Shown here: one piece after another, positions 9,774 to 59,386 of the stretch
Numbering within the stretch: position 1 is the first letter of the stretch
Layout: the number at the start of each line of letters is the position of its first letter
Assembly (NCBI GenBank): GCA_009746045.1
Contig: RPFO01000086.1
Location: 275,732-339,731, forward strand
From: Mesostigma viride
Taxonomy: Eukaryota; Streptophyta; Mesostigmatophyceae; Mesostigmatales; Mesostigmataceae
Reading direction: 5' to 3'
DNA: 64,000 bases
Program-made: the position numbers and the translations under genes
Notes under the pieces: generated by a model
What the model saw: only the letters and a program-made list of their open reading frames with translations
The model's database searches: none
Told to the model about the DNA's origin: nothing

Positions 9774-9806
9774 CCCACCCGCCCTCCCTGTGTGTTGCCT
9801 GTTTGG

Positions 9807-15046: not shown

Positions 15047-15150
15047 TGCATTAAAAACTCCAGTAAAAAGACACGCGTGAAAGACGACGAGCGTTCAAAG
15101 CGATTATTTCGCGAAAACCCACTTCATTTTCTACCTACATTTTTGTACCA

Positions 15151-17389: not shown

Positions 17390-17680
17390 ATGGCCTATGT
17401 GCAGCAATGCCTAGAGCCATTTGCTGCTGCAGCCAAGGATGTAAAGGTGAAGCAGGTAAAGGGGGAGGAAGCCTCAGGTACGGGGCTCTCCAAGAAGCAG
17501 ATGCAGTCGCTGGTGGCCCAGGTAAAGGCGGTAATGGGGGGGGATAAAAACAAAAACAACAAAAGTGGGGGAGGTGGAAACAAGGGGGGGGGAAGAACAA
17601 TAACAATAAAAACAGAAAACAAAGTGGGGGAGCTAGCAAGCCAGGGGGTGCTAAGCCAGCAGGGGGGGACAAGAGGTTGC
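17390..17680 (+). pseudogene. Cop-1 Gag C-terminal linker (third frame)
   Basis: Lys/Gly/Asn-rich linker: E-D-F-R-K-A-M-A-Y-V-Q-Q-C-L, then basic Gly-rich stretches (G-G-G-N-K-G-G) built on G and A homopolymers. These homopolymers (17534-17600) probably account for the change of frame before the zinc knuckle at 17700. Confidence 0.6.
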
Positions 17681-19464
17681 CTCATGACCCCACCAAACAT
17701 TGCACTAGGTGCCTTTGTAAGGGGCACCTAAAAGATGATTGCTGGAAGGGCAAACCCGACTATGGTTCTGACGTTGATGTTTGTCCTGGATGCTGGAAAA
17801 CACGTCACCCCATTGCAGCAGGAGCGCGCTGCACGGCTCCCAGGCACAACAAGAACACGCCAGGGCGCTACAACCGCGCGGGGGCGGCAGACCAGGGAGA
17901 CTCCTGTAAGCTACCCTCACCATTTTTCACAAATGGTTTCCTGTTACCTTCTGTCTGCCAAGTGTTGCCTGAGTGTGATGATGTGGATTGGGAAGTGGCA
18001 TATGACATGACACTGTCACACATGATGCGTGACCCCACCATAGCTTCCCTTAGTGCAGCAGCAGAAAAGGTAATCACGTATGGTGCTCTAGCAGAGCAAC
18101 TGCACAAGGTTATGGGCCATGAGGCTGTGGCTGAAAGGCTAGCCAATAAAATACAAGGCCATGATCTGGAACAGATGTGCAGGCACGTACGTAAGCACTG
18201 TGAGCAATGTCAGCTATATGCTCCTAAGCCCAGAAAATGGCATGTGGCCACACCACCACTGGCTAGAGGCAAACTGGTTGGGGATGTTATACACGTGGTG
18301 AAGGACACGGTATACTACCTAGTCATAAAGGATGCCTGGTCAAGGTTTGTGGTAGTGGAGCCTCTGCCTGGGATGGATAAAGAGCAGCTGCACAGAGCTT
18401 TACAGATAGCCTTGGCACGTTTTCACCCCATTGAAAAAGTAATGCTGGATCAGCAGTTTCTCTGCATCCAGGACAGGAATGATCTGCCCAAGATAGAAGT
18501 GTCTGGGGCTCAAGATCATGAACGTCAGGGGTTGGTAGAACGTACCATGAGAGCCATCAGGGATGTGATAAGAAAAATGCCATCCAGGTTGGCTGACTCT
18601 GGTAGCTATGCTGACAGGGCATCTTGGGCAGCAGGGGTGACTACCCAGCTAAACGCCAAACCAATAATGTCCTCACCTTTTGGGGAAATCACCCCAACTG
18701 GCCTTCAGTCAGGCAGCTATGCTTCAGAGGTACACACTCACTACAACACACAAAGGCAGCACTTAGCCAAGTTGCTGGCAAAGAAAGACAAAAATAATGC
18801 CAGGCCTGTGTTTGAAGTGGGGGACCATGTGTTGTTTTTCAGAGAGGGTGACAGAGGAAGAGCACACTCTGCCAGATGGCACGGTCCAGCTGTAGTCACC
18901 AAAATTCATGAAGAAGGGACTGCAGTCACTATACAACATGACAGAGAGCGTGTGGTCAGCAAGCATAGACTCAAGCTTTATTACCCACCACTGGCAGACG
19001 TGTCAGGGGTAGAATTCTTGGACATGGATTCAGAGCAGGAGTCTGGTGGATTGATCTCACCCAATGAATTGGCTAAGGACGTCATTGATGCAAGCACTAG
19101 TACCACAGTAGAAGCTCCTGTGTTCCTCAGTAGTGCAGCCCCACTACAACCCAATAGTCCACCTGGGCAGGAGGACGGTGCACAGGGTGAGCAGCAGGTA
19201 GCACCTCCCTCACACCTGGAGGAGTCACAAAATAGAGCAGATCCTGTCGTTCCCAGGAAGTCATTTGCTGAGATTCTTAAGGCCTTGCACAAGGCACACA
19301 ACACTAAAGCAGTTGTGGCAACAGGTACAGCACAGGTCAATGCTGTAGGGGATGCAGGTCAAGATCCTAGTATTTTGGCTGTAGACACCCAAGCACAGGT
19401 GAGTATCATCAGTGCAGCAGCTGTATCTGGTCTGAAAATGAAGGCCTCACCAATGATGGGCTAG
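17677..19464 (+). CDS. Cop-1 zinc knuckle, integrase and start of protease-like domain
   Basis: 595 codons. CCHC knuckle C-T-R-C-L-C-K-G-H-L-K-D-D-C (residues 9-22), then a second Cys/His cluster (C-P-G-C...H...C). HHCC domain: H-K-V-M-G-H...C-E-Q-C (about residues 145-190). Integrase core: G-D-V-I-H-V, V-M-L-D-Q-Q-F (about 255) and G-L-V-E-R-T-M (about 285), with 29 residues between the second Asp and the Glu. An SH3-like C-terminal region follows (W-H-G-P-A-V-V-T-K-I). After P-R-K-S-F-A-E-I-L-K-A-L comes L-A-V-D-T-Q-A-Q-V-S-I-I, the protease-like active site, so PR follows IN. The frame breaks at 19464 and PR continues in other frames. Confidence 0.88.
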   Translation: MPHDPTKHCTRCLCKGHLKDDCWKGKPDYGSDVDVCPGCWKTRHPIAAGARCTAPRHNKNTPGRYNRAGAADQGDSCKLPSPFFTNGFLLPSVCQVLPECDDVDWEVAYDMTLSHMMRDPTIASLSAAAEKVITYGALAEQLHKVMGHEAVAERLANKIQGHDLEQMCRHVRKHCEQCQLYAPKPRKWHVATPPLARGKLVGDVIHVVKDTVYYLVIKDAWSRFVVVEPLPGMDKEQLHRALQIALARFHPIEKVMLDQQFLCIQDRNDLPKIEVSGAQDHERQGLVERTMRAIRDVIRKMPSRLADSGSYADRASWAAGVTTQLNAKPIMSSPFGEITPTGLQSGSYASEVHTHYNTQRQHLAKLLAKKDKNNARPVFEVGDHVLFFREGDRGRAHSARWHGPAVVTKIHEEGTAVTIQHDRERVVSKHRLKLYYPPLADVSGVEFLDMDSEQESGGLISPNELAKDVIDASTSTTVEAPVFLSSAAPLQPNSPPGQEDGAQGEQQVAPPSHLEESQNRADPVVPRKSFAEILKALHKAHNTKAVVATGTAQVNAVGDAGQDPSILAVDTQAQVSIISAAAVSGLKMKASPMMG

Positions 19465-19917
19465 AGTGTCAGATTTTTCAGGCAAAACCAAAATGCAGGT
19501 CAAAGGTCAGGTGAGCATTCAAATCTTGGGTATGCCCACTCCATTTCAGGTGGTTGAGGGTTACTCAGGGAATGCCCTGTTAGGGGAACCTTTTGTATAT
19601 CTTACCCTGGTGTTGTCATCTCAGCTGGGAGGTTGAGTGTGGCAGGGGTAGGACAGGTGCCTCTAGATCATTTTAAAATCCCTTTGAGCCAGATTAGCAC
19701 TGGGTTGGATGCTGCCATCAATGCAGTCAAGCCCAAGTACCTCCCAGGTCAGGAACCGTGTGTGGAGGACCTCATACACTCTCAAAAGCTACACCCTTCA
19801 GCGTTTGGGCTTGGTAGATGGGATGTTGCATCCATGTCTCCCCTGTCCTATGATGATATTGTACGGGACTGCCAGACGCAGATTGGGTTTCTTAAGTGGC
19901 TGGAGGCTTTTACCAAA
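19465..19917 (+). pseudogene. Cop-1 protease-like domain remainder and RT N-terminal linker
   Basis: After frameshifts at 19464 and about 19605, the frames read Q-V-S-I-Q-I-L-G-M-P-T-P-F-Q-V-V-E-G-Y and A-L-L-G-E-P-F-V (the ILG-type block of retropepsins), then S-V-A-G-V-G-Q-V-P-L-D-H-F. This is followed by the linker to RT ending F-L-K-W-L-E-A-F-T. At about 19917 coding stops at the foreign block; the partner sequence A-R-E-E-W resumes at 28774. Confidence 0.8.
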
Positions 19918-28036: not shown

Positions 28037-28773
28037 GAAATGTGCTGGAAAGGTTAGCTAACTCTCGCGGAGAGGGTTAGTGAGCCAATTAGGATACCAA
28101 GACGAAGCTTGGCGTAGGTAGAGGTTCCGGAATTCAACGATTGCTGTCAGGCCGGCGGCCAGCCCGTAAAGGGATTCAACGACGACCTAGCAGCAAGCGG
28201 CCAGTCTGGGATACTCGGCGGGGCTAGCAATAGTCCTGTGGTGAGGTGCTGTCAACTATAGCGTTCAGCCCTCCTGTTTTCAACGACACCTAGTGGCGGC
28301 CAGGGCTTGCCTTCAACGACACCGGGTGGCGGCCAGTTCAGGAGGGATTAACGTCATCGAAGATGGTACGTCCCCTAGTTAGAATTCTTTCTTTACAAAG
28401 CTATGCCTGCTGAAGGCTAGCTGGCGAGCTTGCTCTCTATCCGGGAACGCGCGCGCAGGGGGTTTATGTTATATGTTGTGCCTCTATAGGTTGTAAATGT
28501 TGTTGGTGCCCATGGACGTCGCGGAGACGGACATTCGTTGTTTGACCTGCAAGGGGTCGTGGGGGTGGATACCGTCTGGCTGTTGCCGACTGTGTTGACG
28601 GTGTTTACCTCCGTGTGTGCGTATAGCCCGTTCCTGCGGAAGGCTCGGGCGTGTGCTGTGATATACTCCGTGCTCCCTCTCCTCGTTTGTTTAAGGTCAC
28701 TGCATTAGAGGTAGCCTGGGTTTCCCCTTTCTCTCTTGCTTGCAAGCCGCTGCCAGACTATGATGTAACATAT
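28037..28773 (+). other. Leader of the LTR-B element, with short repeats
   Basis: No long ORF. Contains three or four copies of a TTCAACGAC...GCGGCCAG motif (about 28133-28340), probably a structured RNA leader or packaging signal. A short open stretch (M-D-V-A-E-T-D-I-R-C-L-T-C-K, from 28512) ends after about 30 codons. It ends abruptly where Cop-1 RT coding resumes. Confidence 0.5.
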
Positions 28774-30279
28774 GCCAGGGAGGAGTGGGTTGTTCCAGAT
28801 GCACGTAGTCCCACACACACACCACCTGTGACTCCTCTTGATGCTATGCCAGCTGGAGCCAAGAAGCTAAGGTTAAAGTTTGTGTGCAAGCATAAACCTC
28901 AGGCTGATGGGGGACCACCCATTTTCCATGCTAGGCCATGTGTCACTGAGTTCAGGGGCTCTACAGAGCTGACAGAGGCTGAGCTTTATACTCCTGGTAT
29001 TCAGCAAACGTCTCTCAAGGTGTTGCTTTCCTTGTTTTTGCATCAGCTTAATACAGGGAAGGATTATGTGTGTAAAGCCACAGATATCAAAAGAGCCTTT
29101 CTAAAGGGGGACCCTGCCATAGCACAGCAGGTCTGGAGAGGTCAGGTATACGTGGTGAATACTCCTAAGGTGTGGCACAGGGATATTGTTCAACCCTTGT
29201 TGAGGCCAAACCTGGGGGTTGAAGGGTTGCAGTCAGCTCCAAAAAATTTTAGGCTGTCTGCACAGGAGGTATTCATGAAGCTAGGGGCCACCTATGATGA
29301 CATTGACCCTTGCTTGTTTGTCATCCCACACACTGATGGAATGATGATGTTTGTCTGGCATATGGGGATGATCAGTTAATCTCAGGCCCTGGAGCTGCAG
29401 TGGATGCTTTCATAGCTCAGGTGTCTGCCAGTTTTGAGATTGGCAAGCAGCTAGAGCTGGGCAAGGAGCCAGTCAAGTTCTGTGGCATGATGCTTGAGTT
29501 GCTGCAGCAGCAGGGCAGCTGGGTTTGTTCCATGCAGGCCTCTGCTGAATACATTAAGTCTTGTCTGGATGTCCTGCCTGTTCACATCACCCCGGACATG
29601 TGCCCTACCATTAGAGGCAAGCTTGGTTGGCTATGTGCTACATGTGCACCCCACCTGGCTTTCGTGAGCAGGGTAGATGATGAGGTACTACAGGAGGTAG
29701 GAGCACGGGCAATCAAGCAGTTATTGCATGATGGTCCACCTTTGATGCTTCACTCACTGGACCTGTTTACTCCCATTCACATCACGTGCATGATGGATAG
29801 TTCAATGGAGTCCAGGGTAGTTACCAAGGTTCAAGCCAGAGAGGCTGGATTGTTTTTCCTGCATAACCAAGGTGGGAAGAAGTCACTAGTCTCATGGTTC
29901 AGTAGATTGCACAAGAGGAAAGCTGTGAGTAGCAATGTAGCTGAATGCAGGGCTGTGGTATCTTGTGTCTTAATTGCATGCAAGGTATCTCAATCACTTG
30001 CTGGTCTGGCTTCAACACCAGGCTGGTAGCTCTGCAGGAGTGAAAGCACATTTGCTGACTGACTCTCAATCTATCATCTCTTTCCTTGCCAATCCTTTGG
30101 CTGTACACTCGGACCTGGATTGGATTGTGCTAAAACAGGAATGCAAGTACCTGGAGTCTAAAGCCCACGTCAGGGACAAAGACAATGCTGCAGATGCACT
30201 GACCAAGGTGCCACAAGCAGCAGGACCACAGTACCAGGTCTTGTATGGGTTGATGAACCCTGGTTACAGTCTGAAGTGA
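28774..30279 (+). pseudogene. Cop-1 reverse transcriptase and RNase H, frameshifted
   Basis: Three frames. The first (to 29379) covers RT from A-R-E-E-W through R-L-K-F-V...R-P-C-V-T-E-F and F-K-G-type K-R-A-F-L-K-G-D to L-F-V-I-P-H-T-D. At the catalytic box the sequence is W-H-[2-nt insertion]-G-D-D-Q-L-I-S-G (29355-29380), so the original was WHGDD, not YVDD. The second frame (29380-29975) holds RT thumb and RNase H (M-M-D-S-S-M-E; V-A-E-C-R-A). The third (29976-30279) holds L-T-D-S-Q-S and the terminal N-A-A-D-A-L-T-K. The three RNase H acidic positions D-E-D are present. Dead by two small indels despite near-identical LTRs. Confidence 0.9.
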
Positions 30280-30662: not shown

Positions 30663-31039
30663 AGTTAGTCTAAGTCTCCCGCCTGTAGCCTAAGGGGACA
30701 CGTGCCAGCACTGCCGGCGCCCAATTGGGTACTGGGACGGTGCTGGACTAGAGCAGTCGTGGCATGGACACGTGGCTAGACTCAGTATGTGATGAGCCGG
30801 TACCTCAGTACCGGGACTGTAGTTGTCATGTTAGGACTGACTAGATCAGGTTGTAACTGATAGGCTAGTCCGTCCAGGATCAGTAAGTTAGGCTTAACTT
30901 ACGCAAAGTCTGGTCAGCCGCAATTGACGGCTGACCAGCAGTATATGTGCCATTCTATCCTAATGCCAAGGTGTCTCGTCGTTCACACACACGCCATTTG
31001 GCACTGCCTAAGCATTCCCAGCTCAGTGTGTCCATAACT
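30663..31039 (+). repeat. Cop-1 3' LTR
   Basis: 377 bp, AGTTAGTCTAAG...TCCATAACT, followed by the CTGGT duplication (31040-31044). Differs from the 5' LTR at about five bases and one 4-bp gap. Confidence 0.93.
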
Positions 31040-31044
31040 CTGGT

Positions 31045-32290
31045 GCCTCCTGTACATAAGGGATCTGTACATACCTTGAGTGCTAATAATGACAATAAAA
31101 GATTTTCTCTCTTGTATGACATTGCCTCAAGGTTGCATACCATGTTTGGCCAGGCAGCTTAGTCTTTGCAAGTTGCTAGACGGCTGGGAGGAAGTGAGTT
31201 GTACTCCATTTGCCAACAGGTTGCTCAAGCTTGCAGGTGCAGGCTAGTTGCTAGAAAGCCCAAGCAGTCTCATACCAGGTCTCCTATTTTGCATGCAGGC
31301 CATCATGTGCAGGTGGATATTCAGAGAATCCGAGGGGTTTGAAGCTGCTGGTGGCAGTGGACAGATATACCAAGTACAAGACCCTAGAGATCCTGCCTGA
31401 CATGGAGAAGCCTACGTTGATTGCTGCTCTGAAGTTGACAAGGAGCAGGTATGTACCCTGGGTTGGAGTTGCTGCAGTGTGACATTCAGTTTGAGTGCGG
31501 TGAAAACCTGCCAGAGTTTCCAGAGTTGCCGATTACACCCAGGGAGAGCCACGGCCAGCAAGGGGTGGTGGAGAGAGCCATCCAAGAGACGGTGCTGCTG
31601 GTGGAGAGGACACCAAGGACGTCATCTGCCATTGTGACATCTGCATGGCTACGTTCTGTGGAGGATAGGCTGAACCTGAGGACTCCCATGTTCTTTGGTG
31701 ACATTGCCATCAATCCTCTTATAATGTTGCATACCAGGATGCTGCCAGCTGATGCTGAGCAGGCATGGAAGGAGAAGCTAGAGGCCAAGTTCCTCAAGCT
31801 GAGGCAGATCGAAAGACAAGGGCTGCAGTGTCCTAGAACCCAACGTTGGAAAACAGGTTGTTGTGTGCAGTGGAAGGAGCCAAGCTTTCCAGGGAAACGT
31901 AGCAGCTGGCATGATGGGGTGGTGACCCGAGTAGAAGCCGCTGGCCATAATAAGTGCTGGGTGGCCATTGATGGCTCCCAGGCAGTGCACCGTCTGTCAT
32001 GGTCAAAGATCCGTCCCCGGGGAGGTAATAAAGGAGACCTCTAATTCCAGGTGCCCGCTGGTGTACAAGGCGGGGGTGATGTTGTGAGCTTCCTGATCAT
32101 GGTGCTACAGCTGTATCGAGCCCTCGGGGTGGCCCTGGCCCGGCCCCTGGGGTACCTTCACATACGCGGTGGTTGGGCAAGCAGGCGGACAGGCTGCACC
32201 TCCGGAACGGCCCGACACCAGGCCTAGGGGTGTGCGTCTATCAGATATTGTATACAGGCTTTGCAGAGAGCCAAGAAGGATCGCCTAAGG
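31045..32290 (+). pseudogene. Cop-2 integrase and IN-PR linker, degraded
   Basis: Continuation of Cop-2 after the Cop-1 insertion. HHCC remnants (L-H-T-M-F-G-Q-A...C-R-C) and first catalytic Asp in H-V-Q-V-D-I-Q-R-I-R-G occur in broken frames (31080-31340). A long clean frame 31451-32044 holds L-L-Q-C-D-I-Q-F (second Asp) and H-G-Q-Q-G-V-V-E-R (Glu; 29 residues between). It then has a C-terminal domain with W-K-E-P-S-F-P-G-K-R...W-H-D-G-V-V-T-R-V and V-H-R-L-S-W. Beyond 32045 a broken frame gives R-L-S-D-I-V-Y-R-L-C-R, equivalent to the motif before PR in Cop-1, Cop-3 and Cop-5. TRIM-B cuts it there, so PR/RT are missing. Confidence 0.85.
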
Positions 32291-33268: not shown

Positions 33269-33912
33269 AGTTAGCATTTTGGGCAACCAATATGCTAAGT
33301 GGATACAGTTTGGAAAGACCTTTCCAACGCCGTGCTGACCGCCTGAAACAGACAAGGGACAAGAAAGATATCAAGTCCCGAAGTCCTAGCCATCCGTGGC
33401 CGACTAGGGTGCAGTCCTCTGGCCTAGTGGACAGGACACGTGGCAGGCCGTGCCTGCACAGGCTTAGCCTGATTATCACGTGACTGTGGTCCACGTAGAT
33501 CAGAGGAGCAGCAGCCTGTGACTGGTGGAATACTGGAGCTGGCACAGGTCTGCAAGGATACTAGGCCTTGCAGGCTTGTGACAGGTCCTGTACTTCCTAG
33601 GTTGCAGAGTCTAGGCAAATCCAGTTCGTCCTGGCTCTGCACTGATGCCAGTGGACGTTGAGGATTTGCTTGCACGCCTGCACGTGCCTCGTCATGCCGA
33701 TGGGAACGAGGAACAACGCAAAGGATATAGCTTGGTCATGGGGGATGACCAGCTATCTCGGAAAGCACGAACCGTGGGTGCCACCTTGGTCGTGGAAGTG
33801 CCCATTGTGGTCGTGGCCTGGTGAACAGATTTAAGGTTGCTGCCTTGCAACATTGGCTAAGACGCGCTGTGAAAGACCAAGAGCTCACATACGTTGGGAG
33901 CTCTTTCTAACT
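33269..33912 (+). repeat. Cop-3 5' LTR
   Basis: AGTTAGCATT...CTTTCTAACT, boundary fixed by GCGTG. Followed by CGTATTATTGTCTCC, the presumed primer-binding region. Confidence 0.94.
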
Positions 33913-33937: not shown

Positions 33938-35125
33938 ATGTCCAACGTGCCGAGGGAACAGGCCATTGAGCCTTCGCAAAGCCAGAGCTCGCAGCCGCAG
34001 CTTCGGGTAGGAGCCCCGGAGCGATCACGACCTTTTCATCCCTACGCTCATCCGAGCACCGCATCAACCTTCGTCCAGGCGGCGTACCTGGCAAGGGGGC
34101 TGGCGAAGAAAGGTTGGGTAGCAGTTTGCGGAACTGCAGCAGGGCCGGCGGCGAGCGACCCCATTGTGATGCAGATTGAGGCTTCGACAGCTCCCGGCGA
34201 ATTGTCGCGAGAGGCCGTCGAAAAGTTTGTGTCAATACGGGACGAGCTGTCCTCGACCATTTACGGTCTGGAGGTGGCTCACCAGGGCGGGCACGTGACC
34301 GTGTCGCAGCTGGATTTGGCGCGGGAGGCACTGGGCCAGATCGTGGCCATTGGACTGGGAGCAGCGCGACTGTTCAACCATCAGGTGGCAACGTCTGTGC
34401 TGGGCGCGGGAGTTGAAGTCCCGGACGTGATCAGGCAAGCGCAGGCGCGCGAAGTCGACAACCCCTGGTCGACGGCAGAGGTGGTTTCACAAACGTGCGA
34501 ACACCTCGTGAACATTCTTTTGCAGGAGTCACGGGGTAACGCAGACCGGTGGGTGATAACCACACGACCATTTGGGATTTGGTCAACACTCGACACACCG
34601 CGGGCGGCGGAACCAGACGCACACGATCCAGTGGTCGAGGTCATCACGGGTCGGGAGGTAACGCCAGAAGACTTCCATTACCAATTCGTTGATCAGCCAG
34701 AGGGGATCATCGAACGTTCATCTCAGCAGATAGATCAAGGCGACGGTACCACAGAAGGGTACGCTGCACGACGTCGTGCTGAGCTGCACGTCCCGCAAGA
34801 GCCCGAACACGACTACGGTGGTCGTGGGGCTTGCAACGACAAGCGGGGTGGTGGAACGCGGTGGGTGAAGAACCTTGAGTGGGATCGCTCGAGTGGGAGC
34901 GAGCCCCGGATCCCAGTGGAGAAATCTGCAGACGGGCGACCCGTTAGCAGAGTGTTTGGACCCTACGCCGACGGGGAGGACGCCGCTGGCAGCGACGAGG
35001 AGCGGCCAGAGACGCCCATCGCAGCCACTGCTCAAGAGCGAGAGCTGGAGGCAGCGAACCAAGCAGGTGCTGAGTCAGTAGCTGGGACGGTGCCCACGGC
35101 ATCCCCCAGCGACGCCAGTGCTTGA
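33938..35125 (+). CDS. Cop-3 ORF1, unrecognised, precedes Gag
   Basis: The first ATG is 33938 (M-S-N-V-P-R-E-Q), 25 nt after the LTR; about 395 aa, intact. Mixed helical protein: residues about 35-200 are Ala/Val/Leu-rich with regular heptad-like spacing (S-I-R-D-E-L-S-S-T-I-Y-G-L-E-V). The C-terminal third is acidic and Gly/Arg-rich. No zinc knuckle, protease, RT or IN motif. It ends 53 nt before the Gag ATG. In Cop-1 the corresponding region is the acidic N-terminal Gag part, so this may be a split-off matrix/assembly domain (inference). Confidence 0.7.
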   Translation: MSNVPREQAIEPSQSQSSQPQLRVGAPERSRPFHPYAHPSTASTFVQAAYLARGLAKKGWVAVCGTAAGPAASDPIVMQIEASTAPGELSREAVEKFVSIRDELSSTIYGLEVAHQGGHVTVSQLDLAREALGQIVAIGLGAARLFNHQVATSVLGAGVEVPDVIRQAQAREVDNPWSTAEVVSQTCEHLVNILLQESRGNADRWVITTRPFGIWSTLDTPRAAEPDAHDPVVEVITGREVTPEDFHYQFVDQPEGIIERSSQQIDQGDGTTEGYAARRRAELHVPQEPEHDYGGRGACNDKRGGGTRWVKNLEWDRSSGSEPRIPVEKSADGRPVSRVFGPYADGEDAAGSDEERPETPIAATAQERELEAANQAGAESVAGTVPTASPSDASA

Positions 35126-35178
35126 GTCAGTTCTTCCTTTTTCCTTCGCCTTTATTGTTGTGTCCCCACTTGTATATA

Positions 35179-36531
35179 ATGCCTCGTGGCAAACCGGGCG
35201 ACGGCGACAAGGGCGAGGAGGGGGCACCGGCTGGAGAGCCAGGAGCCTGGGAAGGGCAAGGAGGCGCTGGTGGGAGAGGCGATCCCAGCCAGCGACGGCG
35301 ATGGGGGAAAGCGACCAGGGAGCAAGAGGCGACACGAAGACTCGGTGGAGGAGGCGCGCAAGGCGCGGGCGCTGGGGCATCTGATGCAATAACGGTGGCG
35401 AATGGGCAACCTGCCGTGGAGAAGCGTAAGAGGGACCCCTCTGCTGACGGCAATGGTAAGAGGCCTCATGTGGATGTGCTCTCCCCTGTGCCTGCTGGAC
35501 CAAGTGGTGCTGTTGTTGTGACACCCGCTGTGGTGGAGCCAGTGAAGGCGCTGCCAGGGTCGAGACCTCACATGAGTGCTGTCACTGTTATGAATGGACA
35601 AAAGCCTCTTAACCCACCACTAGCACAGGAAGCTTTGGACAAGTGGCTAGAGGACATGGAGCTTGTTGTGTTCTCCGTGGACCCCACTGTCAACCTAGTG
35701 CAAGTGTTTCACTCGTCCACGTGCAACAGGGACTCGTCAGAGCGTGTCAGGGAGAAGGCTAGGACTGCTGTCAAGGATAAGCTAACCTGGGCACAGTTCC
35801 TGGATGGGTTGAGGGAGGAGTTCTCTGACAAGGTTCTCAACCTCACCAACTACTACAAGCATCAGTATGACACCTTTGAGATAGTGGGCCCTGTGGCAGA
35901 GGAATGGGCTAGGCTCAACCGTATCAGGGACAAGGGGGCCAAGTATGGCTTCCTGGTCACAGATAGGGCCTTGGCAGACTATTTCCTGGACCGTATGGGT
36001 TTGAGTGTGGATGGGAGGAACGGTGCCCGCATGTTTCTTAACCAGACTGATGGCTCCTTGCGTGCTCTGGAGCTTGTAATCCTCAGCATAAGGAAGCCAG
36101 AACCTGCCTGCAAGGCTATCCAGTCCCATGGCAGCAATGCCACCTCCGCTGTGCAGGGCCAAGGTGATGTCCCCGGGTACCCAGCCCGTGATGGGGCAAG
36201 GCCCAACAAGCGTAAGCGCTTCAGGCGCCAGAGGCAGGGGGCTCAGGGTGGCAAGGGTGCAGGTCCCCAAGGAGGGGTTGGGGGCCAGCAAGCTGGTGGT
36301 CAGCAGGGTAAGGGTGGCCAAGGGCAAGGCAAGGGCCAAGCTCAAGGCAACCAGGGCAAGCAGGGTGGGCAGCCTCAGGGAGGCCAGGGGAAGCCTGGCA
36401 AGGGTGGGGCTGGGTCTGGGAAGAAGGGTGGAGCATGTTTTGTGTGTGGCAAGGAAGGTCACTGGCGTCGTGAGTGTCCTGACAGGAAGGCCAAGCCTGC
36501 TGGGGCAGGAGGCCAGTCTGGGCAGCAGTGA
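35179..36531 (+). CDS. Cop-3 Gag with CCHC zinc knuckle
   Basis: I choose the ATG at 35179 (M-P-R-G-K-P-G-D-G-D); the frame is open from 35122. About 450 aa. The N-terminus is Gly/Arg/Glu-rich. A copia-type capsid domain spans about residues 130-290 (L-A-Q-E-A-L-D-K-W-L-E-D-M-E-L, Y-Y-K-H-Q-Y-D-T-F-E-I). A long Gly/Gln/Lys low-complexity tract follows (about 320-415), then a zinc knuckle C-F-V-C-G-K-E-G-H-W-R-R-E-C (CX2CX4HX4C, about 420-433). Role: RNA packaging and particle assembly. Intact. Confidence 0.88.
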   Translation: MPRGKPGDGDKGEEGAPAGEPGAWEGQGGAGGRGDPSQRRRWGKATREQEATRRLGGGGAQGAGAGASDAITVANGQPAVEKRKRDPSADGNGKRPHVDVLSPVPAGPSGAVVVTPAVVEPVKALPGSRPHMSAVTVMNGQKPLNPPLAQEALDKWLEDMELVVFSVDPTVNLVQVFHSSTCNRDSSERVREKARTAVKDKLTWAQFLDGLREEFSDKVLNLTNYYKHQYDTFEIVGPVAEEWARLNRIRDKGAKYGFLVTDRALADYFLDRMGLSVDGRNGARMFLNQTDGSLRALELVILSIRKPEPACKAIQSHGSNATSAVQGQGDVPGYPARDGARPNKRKRFRRQRQGAQGGKGAGPQGGVGGQQAGGQQGKGGQGQGKGQAQGNQGKQGGQPQGGQGKPGKGGAGSGKKGGACFVCGKEGHWRRECPDRKAKPAGAGGQSGQQ

Positions 36532-36579: not shown

Positions 36580-37464
36580 GTGCTGGATGTACATAAGGAC
36601 GGGGGTGTGCCCCTTGTGCAGCACCAAGGGTGTAAAGATGTTGTTCTTCCACTGGATTGCAATAACAATGCTGCAGCTGAATTCCCTATGCCTCATGCAG
36701 GTGGTGGGTCTCCAGCAGGTGCTGGCCTGGAGGGCCAAGGGACCTTGCTGGAAGGGCCTGGAGCGGTCCAGGGTGCAGGGCCTGACTTGGGGCGTCAGGA
36801 CGGCCTGCAGGGAAGCCCTGGAACCTCAGGAGTGGATCATGTGTCCCCACACACGGTTCAGACGTCTCGCCAGGTCAGTACTGACAGAGTGCTGAGCTAT
36901 GCTGAGGCTGGCCATAGGTTGCATCACATGTTTGGGCATTCTGGGCAGGCAGCAATGTTTGCTTGGAAGCTAGGTAGGGAGCCTTTGTGGGAGGCTTGCC
37001 AGGCTGCTGCTGAGAACTGTGGTTGCCAGGAGAATGCTGTTCACCCACCTCAGTCCCATGCTAGGGAGCCTGCTAGGGAGCGTGGCGACATCCAGATGGA
37101 TATCCAGCATATCAGGGGCTTGTATATATTGGTGGGGGTGGACAGGTTCAGCAGATACAGGCTGATAGACGTTCTGCCTGGTATGCAGGAGCACCACTTG
37201 TTGTTGGGTATGAAGGCCCTGATCCCAGGCTTTGGGGTGTGCAAGAGTGTGCAGGCAGACTTGCAGTTTGACTGTTTGCTCAAGCATCAGGACCAGCTGC
37301 CTTGTAAGCTGGTAGTAGTCCCCAGGGAGAGTCATGGGCAGCAAGGGGCTGTAGAGAGATCCATACGTGAAGTGAAGACAGTGGTGCTAGCAGCAGAGTC
37401 AGTGCCACTTGTGGCATCTGCCTTAGAGAGGGCAGCCTGGTGTAAGGGGATAGAGAGCAGCTGA
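36580..37464 (+). CDS. Cop-3 integrase N-terminal and catalytic domain
   Basis: The open frame covers a Gly-rich linker (no protease motif), then the HHCC domain A-G-H-R-L-H-H-M-F-G-H...C-G-C (about residues 110-150). The catalytic core has D-I-Q-M-D-I-Q-H-I, V-Q-A-D-L-Q-F and H-G-Q-Q-G-A-V-E-R-S, with 31 residues between the second Asp and the Glu. The frame stops at 37464; the C-terminal domain follows in another frame (37460 on), so one small indel separates them. The enzyme inserts the cDNA; here it must recognise AG...CT LTR ends. Confidence 0.88.
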   Translation: MLDVHKDGGVPLVQHQGCKDVVLPLDCNNNAAAEFPMPHAGGGSPAGAGLEGQGTLLEGPGAVQGAGPDLGRQDGLQGSPGTSGVDHVSPHTVQTSRQVSTDRVLSYAEAGHRLHHMFGHSGQAAMFAWKLGREPLWEACQAAAENCGCQENAVHPPQSHAREPARERGDIQMDIQHIRGLYILVGVDRFSRYRLIDVLPGMQEHHLLLGMKALIPGFGVCKSVQADLQFDCLLKHQDQLPCKLVVVPRESHGQQGAVERSIREVKTVVLAAESVPLVASALERAAWCKGIESS

Positions 37465-38474
37465 ACCACAGGGTTAACTATTACTTTGATGGTGTGGCTG
37501 TCTCTCCCCTGGCCCTGCAGTATAGCTTGTTGCCTGAGAACGTGGTGCAGGCCAGTCTTAGGAAGGCAGATAGGTTATTTGCCCAGCTGAGACGTAAGGA
37601 CAAGAACTGGAATGTGCTGAGGCCTCAGGTGGGGCTGAAGGTCAGGATGTGGAAGGAACCATCTATTCCAGGCAAGCGGGGGAAGTGGCAGGATGGGGTT
37701 GTCACTCGTGTGGAGGAAGCTAACAGATCTTGCCTGGTGGCTTTGGAAAAGGATCCAAGGCACGTGTACAGGTTGTCCTGGGCTCATGTCAAGGAAAGAA
37801 GGCCACATGCAATCTGGCCTGCAGACGGGCCAGGCCCTCCCAGCTGGGTTGAGGAGCCAGGCCAGAGCCAGGCAGCAGCAGCTAACAATCCTCTGGTGGT
37901 GGATGATGGTCTGTCCCTGCTGGAAGATGACGAGCAGGAGGAGGCTGCTGAAGCAACTGTCACAAGGCCAGAGGGGACGGGGCAGCCACCTAAGGCCCGG
38001 GGGCCTCTCATGGCGGACGTCATCCGAGCACTCATGCGCAGCAAACATGATCCCAAGGTATCCAAGCTCACGGGGTGGGGGTCGTGCTGGGCAGCTACAA
38101 TGGAGGTAGATACCAACTCACAGGTGTCTGTCATCAGGGAAGAGGATGCTGTAGGCTTACAGATGTCCCATCCCAGTTGCCTTGCTGTGTCTGATTTCTC
38201 AGGAAAGGTGTCCATGAAGATCCTTGGGGAAGTGAGTGTGCCTATCTTAGGGGTGCCCACCACGTTCTGTGTGGTAGAGGGCTATCAGGGGCCTGCCATT
38301 CTGGGTCAGAACTTCTTGTGCATGCCAGGGGTTACTTTGACCTCTGATGAGTTGGCACTAGAAGGCAGGGGCAGCCTCCCCCTTGAAAGATATCACTATT
38401 CCCAGGGTCTTGCAGTGGCGGTAAGGCTGTTAGGAGTCAGCCAGCTGAGGGTCCTCAAGGTCAGGAGCCCATAG
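37465..38474 (+). CDS. Cop-3 integrase C-terminus and protease-like domain
   Basis: Listed as an ORF from 37494. It opens with the IN C-terminal region (K-V-R-M-W-K-E-P-S-I-P-G-K-R...W-Q-D-G-V-V-T-R-V; V-Y-R-L-S-W-A-H-V). A linker with the conserved R-G-P-L-M-A-D-V-I-R-A-L-M-R follows, then the retropepsin-like part: M-E-V-D-T-N-S-Q-V-S-V-I (about residue 205), V-S-V-P-I-L-G-V-P-T-T-F and A-I-L-G-Q-N-F-L-C-M (ILG block). So the protease-like domain lies after IN and before RT. The active site is DTN in place of D[T/S]G. Catalytic competence is uncertain. Confidence 0.87.
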
Positions 38475-38485
38475 CTGAGGACCTG

Positions 38486-40102
38486 TTGATAATCCCAACC
38501 ACCTTTGATCCACGGCAGTTAGGGGTAAACAGGTACCAGATAGCTGCTCACAGTCCTATTCCCTGGCGCCAGCTAGTCGAGATGATGCAGAGCCCCAAGA
38601 TGGCTAAGGCATGGACTCTTGGCTTTGTTGCTTCTGGGCATGAGTGGATAGTTTCCAACTGTGCAGAACCTGTGGATGAGCTGCCAGAAGTTCACCAGCT
38701 GCTCAGATTGATGTTTGTCCTCAAGCTCAAGGAGGTAGATGGTGTCCAGGTGCCACATGTCAGACCAGTTGTAACCGAGTATCATGGCACTGGCCAGTTG
38801 TTAGATGAGGAGCTCTATACTCCAGGGATGCTGCATGACACGTGGAGGATTCTGCTGTGTATATTTCTGTCTTTTCTGGTTAAGGGTGTGCCCTATAGCT
38901 CTGTGCTGATTGATTTCAAGAGGGCTTTTCTCAAGGGTGACCAAGATCAGGCTAGGCAGACTTGGAGAGATATCCCTCCTTTCTTTGTGACTGTACCTGC
39001 TGTATGGAGAGCAGAGATAAAGGCCAGGTACCTGAGAATTCTGAAAGGGTTGGAAGGTCTCAGGTCCAGTCCCATTATCTGGAGAAAGAGCCTAGAGAAA
39101 TTCTTGAAGAATACTTGTGGGTTTTCTGTGTCTCCAGTGGATCCCTGTTTGTTCCAAGGGTCCCACAATGGCCTTCCTGTCTTTGCCTCACTGCATGGTG
39201 ATGACCTGCATCTCATAGGTCCACCAGACTGGGTTGAGGCTGTCTTGGCTAAGATCCAGAAGCGGTTTGAGCTGGGTAAGATACAGCACATGGTGGAGAA
39301 TGAGCCTATGGTCTTCTGTGGCATGCAGGCTACGTTGTTCCAAGCCAAGGGCTCGTGGTTCATCAGGATGGAGGGTGGTAAGGACTACCCACAGCAGATT
39401 GTAGATGCATTGCAGGAGCCCATCACGCAGGCTAGGTGTGCTACCATCAGGGGCATGCTGGCATGGCTTGCAAGTATATGTGCCCCTGACTTGCTGGTTC
39501 TGAGTCGACTTACTGATTCCCAGCTGGTTGAGGTGGGTGCTGAGAGTGTGGTGCAGGCTGTCATGATGTCTCCCCCTCTCATACTGGGTCCTGTGGATTT
39601 GTACAAGCCCCTTGACATGGTTCTCTATGTAGACAGTTCTATGGATAATAGGAAGGTCACAGAGGTCAGGGGAAGGGCAGCAGCATTAGTTACCCTGGAG
39701 CAAGATCACACCTCACTTGTTACCTGGTACAGTCGGTTGCAGAATAGGGTTACACCCAGCAGTGATATTGCTGAGTGCAGGGCAATCTGTGAAGGGCTGC
39801 ATACTGCTCTTTATTTGAGGGAGCTCTTCTACCAGCTATGTCAAGTGGCTTCCTGTAGGTTGCAGCTGCACACACTGGTGAGGACTGATAGCATGGGCAT
39901 GGTGCAATTTGTGCACAGGCAGCTGGCCAGGAGCAGGGACCTTGACTACTTGTTGCTCAAGGAGATGTCCTACCTAGCTCACATTGAACATGTGCCTGGT
40001 GTGGATAACCCTGCAGATGCCCTCACCAAGCTGGAGGAGAAGGCGGAGAGGCAGTACCCCCTGCTCCGTGGGCTCATGGACCCCTTACACGGGCGGCCAT
40101 AG
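38486..40102 (+). CDS. Cop-3 reverse transcriptase and RNase H
   Basis: 538 codons, intact. RT: F-V-L-K-L-K-E-V-D-G...R-P-V-V-T-E, V-L-I-D-F-K-R-A-F-L-K-G-D (motif A), L-E-G-L-R-S-S-P-I-I-W, catalytic box A-S-L-H-G-D-D-L-H-L-I (about residue 237). The tyrosine of YVDD is His. Then F-C-G-M-Q and I-R-G-M-L-A-W-L-A. RNase H: Y-V-D-S-S-M-D-N (about 381), I-A-E-C-R-A-I, R-T-D-S-M-G, terminal N-P-A-D-A-L-T-K. The stop at 40102 lies 5 bp before the DIRS-like insertion. PR and RT frames are separated by only 11 bp. Confidence 0.93.
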   Translation: MIIPTTFDPRQLGVNRYQIAAHSPIPWRQLVEMMQSPKMAKAWTLGFVASGHEWIVSNCAEPVDELPEVHQLLRLMFVLKLKEVDGVQVPHVRPVVTEYHGTGQLLDEELYTPGMLHDTWRILLCIFLSFLVKGVPYSSVLIDFKRAFLKGDQDQARQTWRDIPPFFVTVPAVWRAEIKARYLRILKGLEGLRSSPIIWRKSLEKFLKNTCGFSVSPVDPCLFQGSHNGLPVFASLHGDDLHLIGPPDWVEAVLAKIQKRFELGKIQHMVENEPMVFCGMQATLFQAKGSWFIRMEGGKDYPQQIVDALQEPITQARCATIRGMLAWLASICAPDLLVLSRLTDSQLVEVGAESVVQAVMMSPPLILGPVDLYKPLDMVLYVDSSMDNRKVTEVRGRAAALVTLEQDHTSLVTWYSRLQNRVTPSSDIAECRAICEGLHTALYLRELFYQLCQVASCRLQLHTLVRTDSMGMVQFVHRQLARSRDLDYLLLKEMSYLAHIEHVPGVDNPADALTKLEEKAERQYPLLRGLMDPLHGRP

Positions 40103-40107
40103 AGACT

Positions 40108-42908: not shown

Positions 42909-43552
42909 AGTTAGCATTTTGGGCAACCAATATGCTAAGTGGATACAGTTTGGAAAGACCTTTCCAACGCCGTGCTGACCGCCTGAAACAGACAAGGGAC
43001 AAGAAAGATATCAAGTCCCGAAGTCCTAGCCATCCGTGGCCGACTAGGGTGCAGTCCTCTGGCCTAGTGGACAGGACACGTGGCAGGCCGTGCCTGCACA
43101 GGCTTAAGCCTGATTATCACGTGACTGTGGTCCACGTAGATCAGAGGAGCAGCAGCCTGTGACTGGTGGAATACTGGAGCTGGCACAGGTCTGCAAGGAT
43201 ACTAGGCCTTGCAGGCTTGTGACAGGTCCTGTACTTCCTAGGTTGCAGAGTCTAGGCAAATCCAGTTCGTCCTGGCTCTGCACTGATGCCAGTGGACGTT
43301 GAGGATTTGCTTGCACGCCTGCACGTGCCTCGTCATGCCGATGGGAACGAGGAACAACGCAAGGATATAGCTTGGTCATGGGGGATGACCAGCTATCTCG
43401 GAAAGCACGAACCGTGGGTGCCACCTTGGTCGTGGAAGTGCCCATTGTGGTCGTGGCCTGGTGAACAGATTTAAGGTTGCTGCCTTGCAACATTGGCTAA
43501 GACGCGCTGTGAAAGACCAAGAGCTCACATACGTTGGGAGCTCTTTCTAACT
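42909..43552 (+). repeat. Cop-3 3' LTR
   Basis: 644 bp, AGTTAGCATT...CTTTCTAACT, followed by GCGTG. Essentially identical to the 5' copy. Confidence 0.94.
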
Positions 43553-49069: not shown

Positions 49070-49390
<321 letters not shown>

Positions 49391-54710: not shown

Positions 54711-56340
54711 CTAGTGCGAAGACTGACCCAGTGATAGCCTATTCATCGTGTGTCGCAGAAGCGGGTACTGTGCCTTAGCTGAGCTATACAGTTTAGTAAG
54801 GGCCGGCATCGGAGTAGTTCCTTTCGCCCGGCACATGCTGGGTACTGACACAATCAGAGAACTCCTTGACCCTGAGGAAGTCCAAGTCCCGTGTGCGGGC
54901 ATAAGGGTTCTCAATGAAATCAACAACCGCCTGGCTGTCCGTGCGTATCACGCGACGGAGATGCGGAGTGGTGCCGCCCACCGCGAGAATCCAGCAAATG
55001 AGCGCGTGGAAGTAGGACAGCTCGCTCGCAGCCTCGCAGTATGCGCGCGCCTCAGCGGTGTCGGATCCCACATACACGCGGCGGTGCAAACGGGAATACC
55101 ATGCAAAGATGGAAGACATCGTGGGTTGGTCAGCGTTGCAAATGGTAGTGACAGCAGCGCACCTACCACGCATCTTGGTGAGCACGCGGGCATCTAGGGA
55201 ACTGTCGCAATAAGACACAAGCTCCACGGGCTTATCCCAGTCTACACCTTGTAACATCAACCCGGGTGAGGCCAGGAGGTACTGCACAATCACCGCACGG
55301 TCAATAAGGCACAGTACATTGTCAGGCAGTCGGCTAAGGACAGCCAAATCAGGGCTAGTGGTGCAGGCCAGCCAATTAAGCTTGCCACGCAATGTCCCAC
55401 ACTCAGACGCAAGAAGCGGCCCACTGCTGCTGAGTCATCACCTCCTTAACCAAATCCTGCACATAGCTGCCCTTGGGCTGAAGCAACATCGCCCAGTTGC
55501 CATGCTCATCGTGATCCAGGACAGTGTCCATGCCCATGAACTGAACCACCTTGCCCGGCTCACGGAAAATAAGCTTGCCCACAGGGTACCTGGCATGCAC
55601 AATGCTATGGAACCAGGCCGGCAATCCATTCACGCGGGCCAAAGCAATCACAGTCATCCGCATGTACGAACACAAACACCAGCTCGCCCTTCCAGACGCC
55701 CACAAACAAGGAGGGGTCCAAGTCACTGTACACCATGCGAGCTGTGTCATTGAAGGAGAAGGCGCTCTAGGCTCAGGCGCCAAGCCTGTGGACCAGCCAC
55801 GGTCCCATCAACCGCCTTTATCAACCGCATAAACTTCTTTCCTACAAGAGGCTCCCAGATTTTGGGTGTCCTAACATAGAGGGGTGTGGTTCCATCCCAT
55901 AGCCGAGCACTTTCATTGGCATCCCCGTGGAGGTAAGCCTTTGAAAAATCTAGCACAGCGGACCCATGTGGCATACCCCTATTCAAGCGCCCTAGATGAA
56001 AGCACACTACCATGCGCCACGTATCCTTGTTTAAACCTGGCGCAGTCAAGGCCGAAGGGGGCAGGTCAGAAGATCCAGAAAACTCTAGCACTACAGGTCT
56101 AGCAAATTCTACTTTCCTATCAGTGCCCGGGACGGGCTTCATCTGAAATGTCCACTTAAAGCGAAGCAATCTGCCATCCCTCGGTACAACGTCCACAGGC
56201 TCCACACACCCCAGCCCTAGCCATCGTTCCCCCGCAGCCAAGATGGCACCTTGGGTATTGTCTAGACCCTCCTCAGTCGAGACGTGCCTGGCTACATCAA
56301 AGAAGGACATGGGGCTCTCTTTAGCAAAGTCATGAAAATT
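54711..56340 (-). pseudogene. Cop-4 reverse transcriptase and RNase H, frameshifted
   Basis: Minus strand in three main frames. 56310-55747: E-S-P-M-S-F-F-D-V, R-F-K-W-T-F-Q-M-K...R-P-V-V-L-E, A-V-L-D-F-S-K-A-Y-L-H-G-D (motif A). 55783-55403: catalytic box in F-V-F-V-H-A-D-D-C-D-C-F (about 55670), so HADD instead of YVDD. 55392-54711: M-R-G-K-L-N-W-L-A, Y-C-D-S-S-L-D, T-A-E-A-R-A-Y, R-T-D-S-Q-A and S-D-A-[frameshift]-T-K-L-Y. RNase H acidic residues are retained. Gag, IN and PR are missing; the left part may have been removed when 56341-57067 was joined. Confidence 0.87.
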
Positions 56341-57067
56341 AAGCCAGTTAAAGCCCGACCGGCTCAGCTATGGCGGTCGGTCACGTTGAGCTTGGGATAA
56401 GGTGAACACAGAGAACTGCTGTCGGAGCTGGCCCACCACTGGTTTATGTCTTAGCCAGCAAACCCTATCCGGTTAGCCGTAACCGTGGGACAAGCTAGCC
56501 GTCCGTACTGACCCGGATAAGGCCCCGGACTGGGGCCTAGGTGGCGCCGGCCCTAGGCGCCGCCCTTAGACCGGTCGCCCGCATCGGACCGCCGGATTAT
56601 AGCCGGCGGCTGAGCGGACGCTAGCGGAAGGCGTGCGGACGGACATGGGGAACTCAGAGCCAGATCCTAGGGCTCTAGAGTTACTCAACTCCGACATACT
56701 CTTTTGTTCTTTGATTAATTATCAAAATAATTACATCAAATGCAGACCATACAAAACCCTCTAAGGTAGGGAACTCAAGGGGGCCTCAAGGCCGTCAAAA
56801 TCACCACGGTATCGACCCGCGCCCTTGTGATCACACATGAATAGTGATGTAATAAGTAGCGAGCAAAAACCAACTATGCCACCAGACAAAAGGTGACCCA
56901 TTTATTAGGACCAGTGACCCGCCGACGGGCCCAAGGCACCGTCCAACGTGGCTAGGGTATGGTCAGGACAAGCAAAAAAACTACCACCAAGATACTCGTG
57001 AATGCTAGCAACACAGGGTGAGTTATGGCTGTATTCATAAAGCGCCCGAGCCGTAACCCTGTGTGGC
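56341..57067. other. Unassigned sequence between Cop-4 and Cop-5
   Basis: Contains GC-rich palindromes (GGCGCCGGCCCTAGGCGCC, about 56541-56560; GCCGCCGGATTATAGCCGGCGGC, about 56589-56610). A minus-strand AGTTGAG...TTTAACT segment (56344-56697) could be an LTR, but there is no second copy. The stretch before 57068 would be the Cop-5 3' UTR. Confidence 0.4.
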
Positions 57068-59386
57068 TCACGGGTGTTGCATCGTCATGCGCTTGCGCAA
57101 CACTGCGTACTGCGGGGCAGCCTCCCGCGCCTCCTTGGTGAGTGCATCCGCGGGATTGAGTTCATCCGCGATGTGCTGGAGACGCGTGACGCAGGAGGCC
57201 GCCTCAGCGAGTACGAGGTAATCAACGTCCTGTGACCGCGCATAGGGATTGTCAAGGAAGGCCAAACAACTTTGTGAGTCAGTGTGCACCGTGCTAGTCC
57301 AGTGAAGAGTGAACCCACACGAGCCAAATACCCAACCCAGCAAGTACCGCAGCCACATGCCATGTGAGATAGCTGAAACAATGCCCCGGCATTCAGCCGT
57401 GTTGGGGCTAGTGGCAATGCGGCTGTGCAAGCGCGAGTACCAATCTAACAACATGCCAGGCTGGCCCTCATTGCTGATAAAGAACAGCGCCCCCATGCGG
57501 GCCCGCACTTGGCTGACTGTGCGCGTCTCTAGATTAGCATCCGTCACTATCTCGAGGTGCACCGGCTGTGAGCAATCAAGCCCACGAAGCACAATGCCGG
57601 GCGTCATGGCCAGCTGCCGCCGAACATGAATGGACCCTAGTCCTTCCAGCACATCATCGGGCAGGCGAGCGAGCACTGCCAAATCAGGTGCCACCGTGTC
57701 CGCCAACCACCCGAGCTTGCCCTTAACCGAGGGCCCATGGGTTGCCAACAGCGGGGACGGGAGGTCGGCCAGCAGGTCAACCACATAGTTGCGGCTATCC
57801 TGCATGTGCATGACCCATTCGCCAGAACGCGAATCCCGCTGCAACGTAGACTGCACGCCGCAAAACACCACGGGTTTACCCTCCTCATGATCCACCGCCC
57901 TGCCCAGGGGAAACTTAGCCGCCACTGCAGCAAGAAACTGGGTAGCAAATGTGCGAGGTGCCACCAGCTTGAAGTCATCGCCATGCCACACGAAGAGGGC
58001 TGGCTCGCCAGGGACGCCGGTGGGGACCACAAAGAAGTTAGGATCAGCGCGATGGTACGTGGCCCCTAAGCTCTGCAAGACCTCCTCCGCGGAAATGCGG
58101 AAGATGATGGGAGAGCTCTGCAGCCCCTCCACCCCTGTCAACAGCTCGATATACTCGCTGCCAATGGTGCCATCCTGCCAGACCACCGGGACCTTCACCA
58201 CGTAGCGGGTGCCTTGCCATGTTTGCTGCGCGACCCCAGCGTCGCTGTGGAGGAATGCCCGCTGAAAGTCACCGCACCACATCCCGTAGTCCTTGCCCGC
58301 GTTCCGCTTGCCCAAGTAGATGACCGTCAGTAGCCGATGCGAAACATGGTTGAGCCCAGGGGTATAAAGATCCTTGGCATCCAGCGGGGAGGACCCCTTC
58401 GTCTCCGTGACCACGGGCCTTACCCGGAACACCACCGAAGAGTTGGTCTCGTCCGGCTTGTAGGTGAGCACGAACTTCAACCGCAACCGCGTGGCCCCGG
58501 CTGGCACACTCTCCAATCCTCGGTAGACCTCGCGCTCTCGCCACTGCTCCTTGGCTCGAATGAACGCGTCGCGCCACAAAGCAAACTTGAGAGGATCTTG
58601 ACAGTCCAGGACAAGTTGCTCCCACGTCACAGGGCTATCCGCCGCCAGTGAGTGTGAGTGGAGGCCGAAGCTGCGCGGGTGCCAATCCTGAGGCTGAATG
58701 ATGGACTGGACGAGCGGCGGTGTGGAAAACGCCGCCATCGGTAAGCGCCGCACGACGCCGGGCTGCCCGACCACCACCCCCAATGGAGCGTGGTACTCGC
58801 GAAGCGGGATGCTGCCCACCCCCGCGACTGACAGCAAGTCAGCGGACACTGAGAACCCCGGGTATGATACGAAAGGTTCGCCCAGCAAGGCCACATCCTC
58901 GTAGCCATCCACGACGTGAAACGGCGTGTCAATGCCCAACACCGGCAGCACCACCATCCCGGTAACTTGATATGCCGAAGTGCCTGCAAAGTCGGTCACC
59001 GATTTGTACGGCGACTCTAGCACTGGATACAGGGTGGCTGCCCGACGAGAGATAATAGACACGGATGCTTGCGTGTCCACAGCCACCAGCTGCCACGGTC
59101 TACACGTAGGAAACAAGGCTGACTTAACCGGCCTGACCCCCTGTGAGAGAGTTTTGACCTGAGCCACCCCTGATGCAGCTTTCGCTTTAAGCGCCTGAGC
59201 ACGCCACAAGGCCGTGACCGTTGAAGCCAGGTCCCTAGGTGGGCGAGGCGCATGGGCAGGACCCTGACCCTCCGGCGAGGCCACGCTAGGCGGGCCTCCC
59301 ACATTATCCGTGGCTAGCACAGGAGGTGAGTCACTACGTGCACTAGGTCCCGTCAAACCCACCCCATCCTCATCCCACCCATCCAC
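57068..59386 (-). CDS. Cop-5 protease-like domain, reverse transcriptase and RNase H
   Basis: 772 codons, intact, starting in overlap with the Gag-IN ORF; the listed first codon is GTG, so it is probably made by frameshifting from upstream. PR-like: V-A-V-D-T-Q-A-S-V-S-I-I (about residue 100), V-L-P-V-L-G-I-D-T-P-F, A-L-L-G-E-P-F-V. RT: R-L-R-L-K-F-V-L-T-Y-K...R-P-V-V-T-E, W-C-G-D-F-Q-R-A-F-L-H-S-D, L-F-V-W-H-G-D-D-F-K-L-V (about 467), F-C-G-V-Q, K-G-K-L-G-W-L-A. RNase H: V-T-D-A-N-L-E, A-E-C-R-G-I, H-T-D-S-Q-S, N-P-A-D-A-L-T-K. Again PR lies directly before RT and after IN. Confidence 0.93.
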   Translation of the reverse strand: MDGWDEDGVGLTGPSARSDSPPVLATDNVGGPPSVASPEGQGPAHAPRPPRDLASTVTALWRAQALKAKAASGVAQVKTLSQGVRPVKSALFPTCRPWQLVAVDTQASVSIISRRAATLYPVLESPYKSVTDFAGTSAYQVTGMVVLPVLGIDTPFHVVDGYEDVALLGEPFVSYPGFSVSADLLSVAGVGSIPLREYHAPLGVVVGQPGVVRRLPMAAFSTPPLVQSIIQPQDWHPRSFGLHSHSLAADSPVTWEQLVLDCQDPLKFALWRDAFIRAKEQWREREVYRGLESVPAGATRLRLKFVLTYKPDETNSSVVFRVRPVVTETKGSSPLDAKDLYTPGLNHVSHRLLTVIYLGKRNAGKDYGMWCGDFQRAFLHSDAGVAQQTWQGTRYVVKVPVVWQDGTIGSEYIELLTGVEGLQSSPIIFRISAEEVLQSLGATYHRADPNFFVVPTGVPGEPALFVWHGDDFKLVAPRTFATQFLAAVAAKFPLGRAVDHEEGKPVVFCGVQSTLQRDSRSGEWVMHMQDSRNYVVDLLADLPSPLLATHGPSVKGKLGWLADTVAPDLAVLARLPDDVLEGLGSIHVRRQLAMTPGIVLRGLDCSQPVHLEIVTDANLETRTVSQVRARMGALFFISNEGQPGMLLDWYSRLHSRIATSPNTAECRGIVSAISHGMWLRYLLGWVFGSCGFTLHWTSTVHTDSQSCLAFLDNPYARSQDVDYLVLAEAASCVTRLQHIADELNPADALTKEAREAAPQYAVLRKRMTMQHP

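Follow-up and report, generated by a model that had tools for sequence, protein, structure and literature searches.

Where is the protease of a copia-like retrotransposon encoded when it stands neither beside Gag nor ahead of a gypsy-type reverse transcriptase? The question is raised by a 64-kb stretch of the streptophyte alga Mesostigma viride (assembly GCA_009746045.1, contig RPFO01000086.1, positions 275,732-339,731, forward strand; here the window, within contig C1945), for which a first-pass annotation had placed a protease (PR)-like domain between integrase (IN) and reverse transcriptase (RT) in the element Cop-3. We find that M. viride very probably harbors long terminal repeat (LTR) retrotransposons with a copia-type RT and RNase H (RH) and the order Gag-(CCHC)-IN-PR-RT-RH, in which the copia PR would have been lost and an ILG-type retropepsin would have taken over. 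Four families were compared: Cop-1, Cop-3 and Cop-5 from the window, and that of the M. viride gene model P0011. They depart from the Ty1/copia order, Gag-PR-IN-RT-RH, in that all four have PR between IN and RT, and from the Ty3/gypsy order, PR-RT-RH-IN, in that all four have IN upstream of RT.

Mapping of the window by tblastn identifies four integrase-like, three PR-like and four RT-RH stretches (Table 1), and in Cop-1, Cop-3 and Cop-5 the succession is the same: CCHC knuckle, HHCC motif, DDE core, IN C-terminal region, linker, PR-like domain, RT and RNase H. Motifs, profiles and tblastn concur with the mapping on the order first read in Cop-3, whose knuckle falls just upstream of the interval then assigned to it (36580..40102), and the claim of the same order in different sequences also stands for Cop-1, which is in pieces, and for Cop-5, which runs across two frames. 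The Cop-3 reading frame is broken by a stop past the knuckle and changes twice, within IN and between PR and RT. In the window copy of Cop-1 the frame breaks inside PR (19375-19603 across both frames) and ≈9 kb of other DNA separates PR from RT, while further Cop-1-family copies are open at both places. The profile search of the Pol sequences that had been proposed as a check succeeds in part, with a zf-CCHC match and weak rve and RVT_2 matches; the Cop-3 RNase H, which extends to about 40090, is called from position and motif only, without a Pfam match, and the knuckle, IN and RT of Cop-5 likewise lack Pfam matches, their assignment resting on motifs and similarity to Cop-1 and Cop-3. Cop-2, formerly offered as evidence for no PR between knuckle and IN, is uninformative on PR placement because Cop-1 is inserted in its knuckle-IN spacer; tblastn finds no PR-like match after its IN.

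Open copies were sought in the host assembly (440 Mb, 2243 contigs) and read genome-wide for the Cop-1, Cop-5 and P0011 families, Cop-3 being known from its window copy alone. All 57 genome matches to the Cop-5 second frame are stop-free and 100% identical over 797 aa, and this copy number is a lower bound (at least 57, from 8349 first-look candidates). The Cop-1 family has 69 genome matches, 10 of them within a 1287-aa open frame; knuckle, HHCC and a PR with D-T-Q share one stop-free frame in 19 of 19 fetched loci (the window's own excluded), and this frame is open through the HGDD motif of RT in nine. For the P0011 family (71 genome matches, 13 within a 1249-aa open frame), IN, a PR with D-T-M and the RT HGDD lie in one frame at 14 of 20 fetched loci, giving IN-PR-RT-RH in one natural open frame, and one copy has a separate Gag frame, with two knuckles at its end, just upstream of the IN frame. 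Both of these families, unlike Cop-5, hold IN and PR in one frame. The four families are 29-47% identical in most comparisons, the IN of P0011 sharing 41% identity with its Cop-5 counterpart, 29% with that of Cop-1 and 30% with that of Cop-3. Gene model P0010, a 99.5-100% match to the Cop-5 PR-RT-RH frame (P0007), is near-identical to Cop-5 and begins inside PR, and is not independent evidence. The two Cop-5 open reading frames (ORFs) overlap by 109 nt, the second in the -1 frame, with a run of eight C in the overlap, and this arrangement is kept in 10 of 10 distinct Cop-5 copies (three of which recur as L031-L033); this may be a programmed frameshift, or merely inherited among near-identical copies.

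The segment between IN and RT is predicted to adopt a retropepsin fold, the result for which structure prediction had been suggested. For the Cop-3 model, all 50 matches listed in two structure comparisons are retropepsins; further predictions and comparisons of the PR domains give weaker retropepsin support. The domains resemble one another by tblastn, with 37% identity between Cop-3 and Cop-5 (99 aa, E 1e-18) and 59% between Cop-3 and the second half of the Cop-1 PR (46 aa, E 1e-11). As a positive control, the DTGA retropepsin of a gypsy-type remnant at 1147-3184 (-), beside a CCHC Gag, matches gag-asp_proteas at E 3e-11. Two points weigh against a protease here: the structure models are of modest confidence, and every protease sequence-profile match falls below cut-off, the part of the proposed profile search that failed. 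A PDB profile search with the Cop-5 PR alone returns no match, and P0008 returns one unrelated match; PINc proteins, found with alignment A6, were rejected as unrelated, drawn in by the long P0011 tail.

The first-pass annotation overlooked both the departure of the catalytic triplet from D-T-G and the ILG type of the domain. The triplet is D-T-N in Cop-3, D-T-Q in Cop-5 and Cop-1 and D-T-M in P0011, such that Asp and Thr are kept in four of four families and D-[ST]-G occurs in none; the later PR motif reads ILG, LLG, LLG and LIG across the four, and ILS in none. According to one survey, Ty1/Copia proteases usually have ILS at this motif, and almost all other clan AA proteases ILG (PMC2642776). 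These two traits favor replacement over simple relocation, and the sequences suggest that a protease from another lineage replaced the copia protease. The usual copia protease would have been lost, and a retropepsin of gypsy, retrovirus or host type would have assumed its role, now encoded at the IN-RT junction, prior to the divergence of the families; this PR would dimerize inside the particle and cleave Gag, IN, PR and RT-RH from one another.

The same triplet lends itself to another explanation, that the domain is a non-catalytic retropepsin fold, either a pseudoprotease or a dimerization or assembly module, with particles matured by a host protease or never. The third residue is altered in all four families, each time to one that the genetic code separates from Gly by two or more base changes, and a review describes Asp-Thr-Gly as common to all aspartic proteases and places Gly27 in the substrate cavity (PMC3185505). 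A purely structural module, however, would not need the Asp, the Thr and the ILG-type motif that are kept in every family, no other protease is found in the elements, and families with the Gly-less triplet have been amplified as open, near-identical copies. We consider a non-catalytic domain unlikely, and judge altered but real catalysis likelier than none, because the Asp is retained throughout and these families have amplified.

A normal copia protease between knuckle and IN, present now or formerly, would instead make the IN-RT domain an extra one. The Cop-3 and Cop-5 spacers (≈147 and ≈200 aa) have room for a protease, and three points here count against our interpretation: the Cop-5 spacer contains LDTGAV, with VLG 22 residues past its Asp versus 63 in the PR domains; WMYIRTGV is present in one Cop-3 spacer frame, which GC phase prefers, with weak agreement from codons; and the Cop-3-family spacer is read from the broken window copy only. 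From these two stray motifs a vestigial protease is possible. The Cop-5 motif nevertheless misfits in its spacing, and Cop-3 codon preference misleads likewise in the nearby Gag tail. Pfam at E up to 10 returns no family in five of five knuckle-IN spacer ORFs, and a PDB search of two spacers no protease. The spacers show no significant similarity across families (of 54 frame pairs the highest reaches z 3.3), though the flanking IN are alike and the IN-RT PR domains similar. No D[ST]G occurs between knuckle and HHCC in 19 of 19 open Cop-1-family copies, upstream of PR in the P0011-family PR frame at 20 of 20 loci as far as that frame is open in the fetched locus, or in open frames of at least 60 aa around the P0011-family knuckles (one copy). 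We regard an additional copia protease as very improbable. Since a retropepsin fold is predicted between IN and RT and Pfam, PDB, motif scans and spacer comparison detect no protease from knuckle to IN, the earlier interpretation that the order fits neither standard arrangement is supported.

The window is crowded with nested elements and its Cop-1 and Cop-3 frames are broken, but nested insertion, misassembly or a single local rearrangement is almost certainly not the source of the order, with four families in agreement, Cop-1- and P0011-family copies holding the order in one open frame at many loci, and gene model P0011 itself reading PR-RT-RH. Local rearrangement being very unlikely, because the order is common to four families, two with a natural single open frame, the view that the order is ancestral survives, as shown among the families of one genome.

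The ends of these elements are also unusual. AGTT...AACT termini with identical 5-bp flanks, rather than the usual copia TG...CA, are found in Cop-3, in two of two Cop-1-family elements (the second, L034, AGTTAG...ATAACT, flanked by CACAC) and in two of three Cop-5-family elements (L032 and L033, AGTTGAG...TTTAACT, flanked by GAATC and GGCCA); the flanks of L031 do not match. Among 664 AGTTA...TAACT pairs less than 20 kb apart in the window, five have identical 5-bp flanks versus 0.65 expected (1 in 1024): Cop-1, Cop-3, an element at 13477-14032, a pair sharing its right end, and one without repeat support. The third of these, on the plus strand, is a 556-bp LTR-bounded element resembling a terminal-repeat retrotransposon in miniature (TRIM-like), with AGTTAG...CTAACT ends and GGGGG flanks. 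AG-CT is not among the non-TG...CA LTR ends listed in the passages of one source (TG-GA, TA-CA, TG-TA, TG-TT and AA-CA; PMC5659011). In IN, the catalytic Glu position is Asp in Cop-5 (MIDR, near 60000 (-)) and in the P0011 family (LIDR, L035), and reads VER in Cop-1 and Cop-3; the former two are possibly DDD integrases in amplified families, judging from sequence.

Comparison with known systems places the elements nearest Ty1/copia (Pseudoviridae), with which they share an RVT_2-type RT, IN before RT, RNase H last, a CCHC Gag, LTRs and 5-bp target duplications, but from which they differ in a PR after IN, an ILG-type rather than ILS-type PR and AG...CT LTR ends. RVT_2 reaches E 1.6e-12, above cut-off, in the relative P0014, and has no match in P0011 or Cop-5; RVT_1 has no match in the same Pfam searches. 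In the Gmr1 clade of Ty3/gypsy the pol-domain order also changed inside a superfamily, to a copia-like IN position (PMC2774666), but there IN moved relative to RT, whereas here PR lies between IN and a copia-type RT. Clan AA retropepsins (retroviral PR, the Ddi1 RVP domain and Rickettsia APRc) share the predicted fold, Asp-Thr and the ILG-type motif, but have G where N, Q or M stands here. Troyka is likewise a distinct LTR-element lineage with unusual LTR ends, but follows the gypsy order, RP-RT-RH-IN, has LTRs bounded by CG...CG and makes duplications of 3 bp (PMC12440569).

Searches of 5.8 billion proteins with P0007 and profiles A2 and A8 return M. viride gene models only (2, 2 and 3 proteins), all three A8 matches at E up to 10 included; ≈8000 candidates were scored per query, and relatives outside M. 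viride may exist. No relatives emerge from IMG/VR (141 pattern matches with A2, 57 with IN alignment A9) or from GTDB contigs (121 with A2). No description of a PR between IN and RT was found in titles and abstract openings of the open-licence literature, and a subscription paper or Repbase entry is possible. The word copia is absent from the main-text passages of two M. viride genome papers, in one of which LTR retroelements form the largest share of repeats, 27.9% (PMC6947507, PMC7027972).

Table 1. Coordinates of copia-like element features in the window
Feature	Coordinates	Strand	Basis or remark
Cop-3 5' LTR (AGTTAG...CTAACT), target duplication GCGTG before it	33269..33912	+	99.5% repeat pair
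Cop-3 extra upstream ORF, 404 aa	33911..35125	+	No Pfam family above curated cut-off
Cop-3 Gag ORF, single CCHC knuckle at its end	35074..36531; knuckle 36433-36480	+	zf-CCHC E 4e-6
Cop-3 integrase, HHCC (from 36922), DDE, C-terminal region	36862..37799	+	Alignment; rve E 0.029; two overlapping frames, P0003 and P0004
Cop-3 retropepsin-like domain, VDTN...AILGQNFL	38076..38400 (about); Asp codon 38109	+	Sequence comparison, structure models
Cop-3 RT and RNase H (HGDD, ADALTK)	38486..40102; RT 38678-39286	+	RVT_2 E 4.1e-5, below cut-off
Cop-3 3' LTR, then target duplication GCGTG	42909..43552	+	Repeat pair, termini, flanks
Cop-1 5' LTR (AGTTAG...ATAACT), target duplication CTGGT before it	14666..15046	+	97.7% repeat pair
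Cop-1 knuckles, integrase, first PR part (VDTQAQVSII), one frame	17548..19464; CCHC 17701, IN 18052-19035, Asp 19384	+	rve E 2.1e-5, below cut-off
Cop-1 second PR part (ALLGEPF), different frame	19460..19621	+	tblastn
Cop-1 RT and RNase H, frame break near 29361	28627..30261; RT-RH 28783-30261	+	RVT_2 E 2e-5, below cut-off
Cop-1 3' LTR, then target duplication CTGGT	30663..31039	+	Repeat pair, termini, flanks
Cop-2 integrase remnant	31121..32038	+	Knuckle side ~14150-14660, separated by Cop-1 insertion
Cop-4 related RT-RNase H fragments	54735..56343	-	tblastn; no PR-like match within 660 bp upstream
Cop-5 first ORF: Gag part, two knuckles, integrase	59353..61782; CCHC 61164, IN 60483-59524	-	Motifs, similarity to Cop-1 and Cop-3
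Cop-5 second ORF: retropepsin-like domain, RT, RNase H	57068..59461; PR 59110-58790, RT-RH 58702-57071	-	Sequence comparison

Extra ORFs lie between 5' LTR and Gag in Cop-3 and in Cop-1 (15067-17360 (+), no Pfam match), and are mutually dissimilar. A PAT/DIRS-type tyrosine-recombinase retroelement occupies 4543-9879 (+), with split direct repeats (4543-4932/9386-9773 and 9261-9333/9807-9879), a recombinase ORF at 8489-9184 (Phage_integrase E 6e-7) and a long ORF at 5293-8733 that is RT/RNase H-like by reading, without a Pfam match. A 1.8-kb element with a PAT/DIRS-like split-repeat layout (40099-41900 (+); 40099-40361/41481-41741 and 41363-41486/41777-41900) has inserted where the Cop-3 pol frame ends. 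Triplet-repeat arrays comprise (GGA)n, ≈62 copies at 46211-46396, and (GCA)n, ≈69 copies at 49070-49276. A weak RNase H-like match appears at 50214-49987 with P0011 as tblastn query only (E 1.4e-4). Rfam (gathering threshold) and tRNA scans of the window give no match, and NCBIfam on eight proteins gives only weak IS481-transposase matches to two integrase frames (E 0.06 and 0.18) and one unrelated match.

We hold evenly balanced the broader proposal that these elements form a separate deep copia-related lineage, with the order Gag-IN-PR-RT-RH, a captured retropepsin of ILG type that works through a D-T-N/Q/M triplet lacking Gly, integration through AG...CT ends and recent amplification in M. 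viride. Domain order is a main trait for sorting LTR retrotransposons, and a third order would mean that the protease is exchangeable while IN and RT stay in place. PR is looked for beside Gag by annotation programs, and such an order could escape standard tools. Open copies whose triplet lacks Gly are numerous and offer a natural test of whether this residue can be dispensed with, and the AG...CT ends pose a parallel question for end recognition by integrase.

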